Source: Microbacterium sp. zg-Y1090 (GTDB taxonomy: Bacteria > Actinomycetota > Actinomycetes > Actinomycetales > Microbacteriaceae). From it: a stretch of 64,000 nt of DNA. Below the pieces are notes generated by a model that made no database searches, was not told the origin of the DNA, and saw only the letters and a program-made list of their open reading frames with translations. The stretch spans positions 2,046,001 through 2,110,000 of the forward strand of contig NZ_CP126742.1 in the NCBI RefSeq assembly GCF_030246945.1, written 5' to 3'. The translations under genes and the position numbers were made by a program. Below, one piece after another: positions 54,717 through 56,205 of this stretch (position 1 is the stretch's first letter; each line of letters starts with the position of its first letter).

Positions 54717-54737
54717 GGGGGCTTGCGGCAAGCCCCC
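54717..54737 (+). promoter_or_regulatory. Rifamycin-associated element (RAE)-like palindrome upstream of rox
   Basis: GGGGGCTTGC, a single G, then GCAAGCCCCC: a perfect 21-bp inverted repeat whose core is the same as, or within a base or two of, the 19-bp RAE described upstream of rifamycin-inactivating genes in actinobacteria (recalled, not looked up). It ends 40 bp before the Rox ATG. In the literature RAE mediates induction by rifamycins. No other copy was noticed in this window. Confidence 0.8.
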
Positions 54738-54777
54738 CTCGCGGAGGCAGGATGGCCGCCGCGAAGAAGGGGGCACC

Positions 54778-56205
54778 ATGTGGGATGTCGCGATCGTCGG
54801 CGGCGGGCCGACCGGGATGATGCTGGCCGCCGAACTGCGGCTGCACGACGTGAGGGTGGTCGTACTCGAGCGGGATGCCGTGCCCTCGCCCCAGGTGCGC
54901 GCCCTCGGCCTGCACGTGCGCACCATCGAACTGCTCGACCAGCGCGGCCTGCTCGAGCGCTTCCTCGCGCACGGCACACAGCACCGGGTCGGCGGGTGGT
55001 TCGCGGGTGTCGACGCCCCGTGGCCGGACGACCTCGACACCGCACACGGCTACGTGCTCGGCATCCCGCAGCCGGTCACCGACCGTCTGCTGACCGCGCA
55101 CGCCGTCGCGCGGGGCGCGGAGATCCGCCGTGGCGAAACGGTCATCTCCCTCAACCAGGATGCCGAGGGCGTCACGCTCGACCTGGCGGACGGAACCGCC
55201 GTGCGCGCCCGCTTCGTCGTCGGCTGCGACGGCGGCCGCAGCACCGTGCGCCGACTCGTCGGCATCGGTTTCCCCGGCGAACCCGCGACGATGCAGTGGT
55301 TGCTCGGCGAGATGGAGCTCACCGCGCCGCCGGAGACGGTCGCTGCGGTGACCGCCGAGGTGCGCCGGACACAGCGCGGGTTCGGCGCCGGCCCGTCGGG
55401 TGAGGGCCGCTACCGCGTCGTGGTGCCCGCCGACGGGGTCTCGGAGGACCGCGTCACCCCGCCGAGCCTCGCGGAGTTCGCCGCGCAGCTGCGGCGCCAC
55501 GCGGGCACCGACTTCGGCGCCCACTCCCCGCGGTGGCTCTCCCGCTTCGGCAATGCCACGCGCCTGGCCGACCGCTACCGCACGGGCCGGGTGCTGCTGG
55601 CCGGCGACGCGGCGCACGTGCACCCGCCGCTCGGCGGCCAAGGACTCAACCTCGGCATCCAGGATGCCGTCAACCTCGGCTGGAAGCTGGCCGCCGAGGT
55701 CGACGGCTGGGCGCCACCCGACCTGCTGGACACCTATGAGTCCGAGCGCCGCCCCGTCGCCGACGACGTCCTCACCCTCACCCGCGCGCAGAGCGAGCTC
55801 ACCCGGCTCGACGCCGGACCGCAAGCCGTGCGCCAGGTGATCGCCGACCTCATGGACATCCCCGGGGTCAACCGGCGACTCACCGAGCGGACCACCGCCA
55901 TCGGCATCCGTTACGACTTCGGCGACGACGACCCGCAGGTCGGACGCCGACAGCGCGACGTTTCGCTGCCGCGCGGGCGCCTGTACGACCGCATGCACAG
56001 CGGGCGCGGGCTGCTTTTCGACCGCGACGGCACGCTCGACATCGACGGGTGGCAGGGACGCGTGGATCGCATCGTCGACCCCGGCGACGAACCGGATGCC
56101 GCGGCGGTGCTGCTGCGGCCGGACGGCCACATCGCGTGGCGGGGAGAGGATGCCGCCGGGCTTCGCCACGCGCTGTCGCGGTGGTTCGGGGCCCCCGTCG
56201 GATGA
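54778..56205 (+). CDS. rox: Rifampicin monooxygenase (Rox/Iri)-like flavoprotein
   Basis: 475-residue group A flavin monooxygenase. FAD loop [16 protein letters not shown], the middle motif [15 protein letters not shown] and the ribose motif [17 protein letters not shown] are in place. Family-specific stretches recalled from Rox proteins are [27 protein letters not shown] [25 protein letters not shown] and the C-terminal thioredoxin-like end [11 protein letters not shown]. Known Rox enzymes hydroxylate rifamycins at the naphthyl C2 and linearise the ansa ring, giving resistance. ATG at 54778 follows AAGAAGGGGG. The RAE-like site upstream supports a rifamycin role. The stop adjoins a family-1 repeat. 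Confidence 0.85.

Follow-up and report, generated by a model that had tools for sequence, protein, structure and literature searches.

The window (the whole 64-kb stretch of DNA analyzed here) contains a gene for a 475-aa rifamycin monooxygenase, rox, which is preceded by a perfect palindrome and flanked by a divergent gene that we take to be M23-peptidase-like. A first-pass annotation had reported a perfect 21-bp inverted repeat ending 40 bp before the gene; as the ATG lies at 54778 and the repeat (GGGGGCTTGC-G-GCAAGCCCCC) at 54717-54737, both its perfection and this distance were confirmed. The features needed below, including the putative parts of two promoters, are as follows:

53943..54626, minus strand: neighbor gene, divergent from rox (reading frame; syntenic upstream of rox in genome G629)
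54693..54694, minus strand: predicted antisense start GG, +1 at 54694 (G at -24 in 44/47 loci)
54701..54706, minus strand: putative antisense -10 TATCCT, 11 bp left of the core (TANNNT in 44/47 loci)
54717..54737, strand not applicable: perfect 21-bp palindrome of the rifamycin-associated element (RAE), with the 19-bp RAE core at 54718-54736
54723..54728, plus strand: putative sense -35 TTGCGG, inside the RAE (sequence; published placement of the RAE over the M. smegmatis helD -35)
54726..54731, minus strand: putative antisense -35 TTGCCG, inside the RAE (mirror of the sense -35)
54748..54753, plus strand: putative sense -10 CAGGAT, 11 bp past the 19-bp core (NANNNT in 44/47 loci)
54778..56205, plus strand: rox, rifamycin monooxygenase, 475 aa (reading frame, profile, structure matches, tree)

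Repeats of the GAGCGTTTCGTCTCGCTGCG... type, facing both ways, were also seen between genes directly 3' of rox (56205-56385).

The protein matches Rox along its length, as the first-pass annotation had proposed: residues 1-473 align with the solved Rox of S. venezuelae (5vqb, 62.4% identity) and RIFMO of N. farcinica (5kow, 64.4% identity), and it scores 804.5 bits on NF033145 (rif_monoox), passing the curated equivalog cut-off of 800 by a narrow margin. The motifs GGGPTG, CDGGRS and LAGDAAH, which we take to be group A flavoprotein motifs, are found at residues 8, 150 and 274. The tree that had been suggested as a check, built as a quick tree, placed the protein inside a Rox clade of 58 rows together with 5vqb and 5kow (SH-aLRT 100); a Leifsonia member of this clade (L045) scores 755.6 bits on NF033145, below the cut-off. 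Its nearest rows form a group of nine (support 96) that counts the window's own copy as one; they carry an RAE and belong to the same genus, to Leifsonia and to further taxa of the order. Judging by its neighbors, the genome would belong to the Microbacteriaceae. A Nocardiopsis rox locus (L075) has a broken reading frame and, being too short, was left out of the tree. The protein was not assigned to the Iri of Rhodococcus (NF000343), for which it scores 638.6 bits against an exception-level cut-off of 950, and a recent phage origin was rejected, the one relative on a viral contig matching at only 41%. We conclude that the gene product is a Rox-type flavin monooxygenase, predicted to inactivate rifamycins.

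By its sequence, the palindrome is an RAE. This identity rests on the core, its length, its symmetry and the set of genes that it precedes. The window fits the definition of a 19-bp palindrome upstream of a rifamycin-resistance gene, the length and palindromy being those given in PMC10719064. It has no mismatches to the core consensus GGGNCTTGCNGCAAGNCCC, derived from 47 loci, and this core also stands before genes of the HelR, Arr, Rph and Rgt types, the same ones that publications on the RAE name. The palindrome's earlier description as RAE-type therefore held. The palindrome is unique in the window at ≤3 mismatches (once per strand; none in shuffled sequence). The search for further copies that the first-pass annotation had called for covered the genome as one contig of 3.07 Mb and returned the window site only at ≤1 mismatch (control, 0). 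At ≤3 mismatches the 19-bp pattern also found one 2-mismatch site (L002), which we regard as within noise because a reversed control pattern gave 5 matches per strand at equal laxity; L002 has no promoter boxes and no classified gene downstream.

We next considered how the element and the genes are distributed across 79 genomes of the genus. An extended element, found with model R1 at E ≤ 1e-4, occurs in 36/79 genomes, HelR in 35/79 (34 over the cut-off) and Rox in 4/79 (2 over the cut-off). All four Rox genes have the extended element directly upstream, in agreement with the earlier placement of the element before rox. HelR is encoded in 33 of the 36 element genomes; the other three (the window genome, in which we found no HelR, G629 and G635) carry Rox without HelR. 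By these numbers, HelR is what the genus mostly keeps under the RAE, and Rox takes that place in a few species, the window's among them. Two genomes, G069 and G657, have HelR without the element, and the window RAE is the only element of its genome at this threshold. The claim that rox lies inside an otherwise core chromosome was roughly right: the two upstream genes flanking rox in G629 are the same as in the window, and G635 has the peptidase gene on the opposite side of rox, but G640 has neither upstream gene within its 4.4-kb locus. These data bear on the explanation that a chance palindrome or terminator happens to precede a generic aromatic monooxygenase. GC-rich palindromes do occur and group A monooxygenases are a large superfamily, but the coupling of element and rox in four of four cases, the NF033145 score, the Rox clade, the unique site and the mirror-image boxes described below contradict it, and we consider it exceedingly improbable.

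The element is found before some Rox-like genes beyond the genus. Among the matches listed, which gave at least 80 Rox-like loci from named genomes, a 19-bp core with ≤3 mismatches occurs in the 300 bp before the gene at 18/80, and the best core match in the gene bodies of the same loci, used as a control, has at least 4. Also among the matches listed, these 18 comprise 13/44 loci at ≥57% identity and 5/36 at 43-51% identity, with a Variovorax locus (L071) that has an indel form of the RAE as a sixth of the latter group. Within the Rox clade a 30-row subclade is RAE-less and would have lost the element or never had it. Its sole RAE label, that of L044, is false: the RAE there (L044:5400) precedes an Rgt-like gene, and the Rox, which lies a few kb away, is RAE-less; the labels on the tree also miss L183, L186 and L187, which do have an RAE. 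In several members of this subclade, which includes most of L014-L044, the upstream region has another shared motif, AGGTGTCGCCGGGAGCGCC or GGGCTTGTAGCTTGC, which might point to a different regulator.

The neighborhood of the core shows that the RAE is the palindromic center of a mirror-image module of ~75 bp, rather than a free-standing 19-bp site. We took 47 loci selected by the 19-bp core alone, oriented them by the downstream coding frame and scanned gaps of 0-79 on both sides; L071, L083 and L108 were excluded before counting, the first for an indel in the RAE, the second because it lies within a gene and has no boxes, and the third as truncated. An antisense TANNNT stands exactly 11 bp left of the core in 44/47 loci (other gaps: mean 0.05, maximum 1), and a sense NANNNT exactly 11 bp right of it in 44/47 (other gaps: mean 1.4, maximum 14). 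On the plus strand, by contrast, TANNNT occurs as the left box in none of the 47 loci at gap 11 and in 7 at gap 12. The predicted antisense +1, position -24, is G on the minus strand in 44/47 loci, and the GGG/CCC arms of the RAE, which belong to neither -35 hexamer, are conserved in 45-47 of the 47. The first place of the -10 is T in 45/47 loci on the antisense side and in only 5/47 on the sense side, where C is the usual base; by this measure the antisense promoter seems the stronger of the two. In the window, the spacer of the putative sense promoter, between TTGCGG and CAGGAT, is 19 bp.

These counts are not 44 independent events, because the loci are related by descent and the genomes were drawn by kinship; the genes downstream of the module are still varied, being of Rox, PRK06834, HelR, Rph, Arr and Rgt-like types. 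When the set is enlarged to 112 distinct actinobacterial loci, 108 have the antisense TANNNT and 111 the sense NANNNT, counts that are biased toward boxes because the loci were found in part with R1, a model trained on them (in the classified set, 10/167 loci are unclassified and 25 duplicates or short rows were removed). Free of this bias are the 47 core-selected loci, together with the 14 arr loci and 14 Rhizobiales NF005303 loci described below.

The left box could instead be another site for protein binding, or an upstream gene's ordinary promoter. A divergent gene does adjoin in the window, where the putative antisense promoter would read into the 53943..54626 gene after a 67-nt leader, and conservation extends to positions -18, -19, -24 and -25 outside the left hexamer. 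Within that hexamer, however, only T1, A2 and T6 are fixed and the middle bases are free, and the hexamer stands exactly as far from the core as the sense -10 does on the other side. Further, by crude gene calls, some of them for genes >1 kb away, the nearest called upstream gene points toward rox in 13/19 loci, where the left box could not be its promoter; in general, then, the left promoter would not be a neighbor's. We therefore regard a non-promoter left box as improbable.

The RAE also marks a second monooxygenase family. RAE-linked homologs that are ~44% identical (L069, L071, L074, L077, L080 and L226) exceed the cut-off of NF005303 (PRK06834), which carries the name "hypothetical protein" only, and fall under that of rif_monoox. 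In the tree, PRK06834 homologs form one 31-row clade (support 100) in which 21 rows are labeled RAE-linked and three more labels are warranted. We observed PRK06834-family monooxygenases under RAE or RAE-like elements at L226, L120, L069, L071, L077, L080, L183-L190 and L196. Two further RAE-linked flavin monooxygenases, L114 and L216, were classed as PRK06834 by best BLAST match, yet lie outside both the Rox and the PRK06834 clades. Because of its repeated RAE linkage, PRK06834 is a candidate rifamycin enzyme family, and the element flags it as such.

Based on R1 matches, the module is present in two phyla. It was found in 44/376 genomes of the window's phylum (E ≤ 1e-7), 16/151 of Dokdonella's order (Xanthomonadales), 6/199 of Bradyrhizobium's order (Rhizobiales) and 1/200 of Variovorax's order, the one being Variovorax itself. 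In Dokdonella's order, a protein-based count that is independent of R1 placed rifampin ADP-ribosyltransferase (NF033144) over its cut-off in 14/151 genomes, and each of these 14 arr genes has an R1 match 41 to 94 bp before the arr match. At these 14 loci, which include several near-copies and one exact duplicate, the core has 0-2 mismatches in 14/14, the antisense TANNNT is present at 13 and the sense NANNNT at all 14; a fifteenth arr match in this order (L250), below the cut-off, is without the element. In the order's other two element genomes, Dokdonella and G1395, the element stands before a PRK06834-type gene.

In the Rhizobiales, NF005303 (PRK06834) is over its cut-off in 14/249 genomes. 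An RAE (≤3 mismatches) lies upstream at 8 of these 14 loci, CTTGCTTCAAG alone at 2 and neither at 3, with L191 left out of this check as a motif miss; controls within the same loci have at least 5 mismatches. The usual form of the RAE here is GGGGCTTGCTTCAAGNCCC, and its half-site on the minus strand is CTTGAA, nearer to the alphaproteobacterial -35 consensus CTTGAC. Exact mirror-position counts fail in this order (0-1/11) because the boxes are shifted by about a base. Other genes preceded by R1 matches in the Rhizobiales are two of Rgt-like type and one for an MFS transporter, the latter being a DHA2-type efflux transporter behind an RAE-like element at L178 (G834). The Rgt-like proteins have NF000354 as their best match, but score 445.4, 579.1 and 616.1 bits against its cut-off of 800.

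Sequence conservation shows an exactly symmetric module that is coupled to rifamycin-resistance genes and occurs in two phyla. RAE-linked genes inactivate or displace rifamycins. The explanation toward which we lean, with a little more confidence than doubt, is that rox is made on demand through the RAE module and that a dimeric trans-acting factor on the palindrome couples rifamycin to promoter choice. The RAE halves would serve as -35 elements of two back-to-back promoters, with -10s at mirror-image distances. The weaker promoter (NANNNT) would read into rox and the more consensus-like one (TANNNT, start G) away from it; both would be expected to fire, and rifamycin to induce rox. The factor would bind over the -35 region, linking the presence of rifamycin to the choice between them. 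As no recurring regulator was seen beside 19 RAE loci, inspected by eye from gene starts, an adjacent regulator was rejected as the reader of the RAE; the factor would be encoded away from the gene and be common to Actinobacteria and Proteobacteria.

A trans-acting factor is favored because promoter exclusion alone failed in a model. Two mutually exclusive promoters, equally sensitive to the drug, were modeled at steady state; the sense output exceeded its drug-free value in 0/400,000 random parameter sets, and we rejected pure exclusion as the sensing mechanism. We also counted conservation of the GGG/CCC arms outside the -35 hexamers in favor of a trans factor. Against the trans-factor explanation, the left promoter of the window could simply serve the divergent peptidase gene, two HelR genomes (G069 and G657) and a Rox subclade are without the RAE, and the Rhizobiales boxes are shifted.

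The presence of the module in Proteobacteria implies that the sensing factor is either shared across phyla or RNA polymerase itself. RNA polymerase would be the sensor if, as in B. subtilis helD and pps, its arrest by the drug at the stronger antisense promoter released the weaker sense promoter, with no dedicated regulator. Several features agree with this: the antisense promoter has a 19-bp spacer from TTGCNG, as in B. subtilis helD/pps; its -10 is better than the sense one, by the T1 counts above; one element in Actinobacteria and two proteobacterial orders is as expected; and a hairpin (z below -1.5) is predicted in the first 45 antisense nt at 13/46 loci, compared with 2/46 control stretches (one of the 47 loci was dropped for lack of flank). 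However, the hairpin is absent in the window (z -0.33) and in most loci, and we rejected an antisense terminator as a general feature. The B. subtilis promoters converge and both must be bindable, whereas those of the RAE are divergent with a shared -35, so their binding would be exclusive, and exclusion alone never induces in the kinetic model. The GGG/CCC arms would also go unexplained. On balance, we find polymerase sensing by such release, the main rival of the trans factor, rather doubtful. We hold as unlikely the broader proposal that the RAE senses rifamycin by itself, with RNA polymerase as its only reader. In this proposal, a shared palindromic -35 between mirror-image -10s would work in any host whose polymerase is rifamycin-sensitive; polymerase arrested by the drug at the antisense promoter would then need to assist the sense promoter as well as obstruct it. 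If true, this would explain the absence of a named regulator, and the occurrence of one module in Actinobacteria, Gammaproteobacteria and Alphaproteobacteria alike, before arr, rgt-like and monooxygenase genes.

Alternatively, the RAE might act as RNA, as a 5' leader hairpin that attenuates transcription or translation. The palindrome could fold, and PMC10719064 places the RAE in a 5' UTR, ~20 bp past the mapped upstream start of M. smegmatis helD. A sense promoter overlapping the RAE, such as that reported downstream in M. smegmatis, would however yield a transcript without the RAE. Moreover, palindrome positions 4/16 are Watson-Crick in just 38/121 non-Rhizobiales loci (43 including T-G wobble) and are dominated by G/G (45) and G/A (27). 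As half-sites tolerate G/G and G/A and helices do not, we reject the helix reading as very improbable. A trans factor on the palindrome remains our preferred explanation. The module provides concrete putative parts, namely two -10s and an antisense start.

In comparison with known systems, an RAE before rox is ordinary here, as it is already in print: PMC10719064 and PMC7283461 describe an RAE upstream of rox, the discovery of S. venezuelae rox through its RAE, and control of that gene by the element (citing Koteva 2018, Spanogiannopoulos 2014 and Surette 2022). The S. venezuelae locus resembles the window in having an RAE palindrome upstream of a Rox that is 62.4% identical, and differs in that the window belongs to a different family, has an orphan RAE (its sole element at E ≤ 1e-4) and has no HelR that we found. 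RIFMO of N. farcinica (5kow; PMC5051949) is likewise close to the window Rox, at 64.4% identity and in the same clade, but the Nocardia Rox loci related to it (L019, L025 and L029) are without an RAE, unlike the window. The accessible text of PMC11077062 and PMC13162311 contains nothing on the RAE, and the openly available RAE literature yielded no mention of the mirror module or of proteobacterial occurrence.

The B. subtilis helD/pps system, as described in PMC12802891, senses rifampicin without a regulator via a strong antisense promoter, stronger than the sense one, whose spacer is 19 bp and whose antisense RNA is short and terminated; a version of the dual promoter placed 17 bp closer lost inducibility. 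Like the RAE loci, it has rifampicin-linked genes and a stronger antisense promoter opposing a weaker sense one. Its promoters are convergent, with starts 39 bp apart and no palindrome, whereas the putative RAE promoters are divergent and back-to-back with a shared palindromic -35. A convergent dual promoter of the B. subtilis type was accordingly rejected for the window, where the boxes are divergent and the -35 is common.

A further known system is mycobacterial helD/arr. According to PMC10719064, the RAE lies over the -35 of the mapped downstream sense promoter of M. smegmatis helD, as it putatively does over that of rox in the window. Deletion of the RAE abolishes helD induction, with no regulator known (PMC10719064 and PMC12802891), and rifamycin sensing by the RAE was described as unknown in January 2026 (PMC12802891). 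Two sense promoters are described for the mycobacterial genes, and an antisense promoter is not mentioned, in the passages of PMC10719064 considered here. In Mycobacteroides sp. LB1, both the arr locus (L117) and a HelR-like locus (L127) carry the full mirror module.
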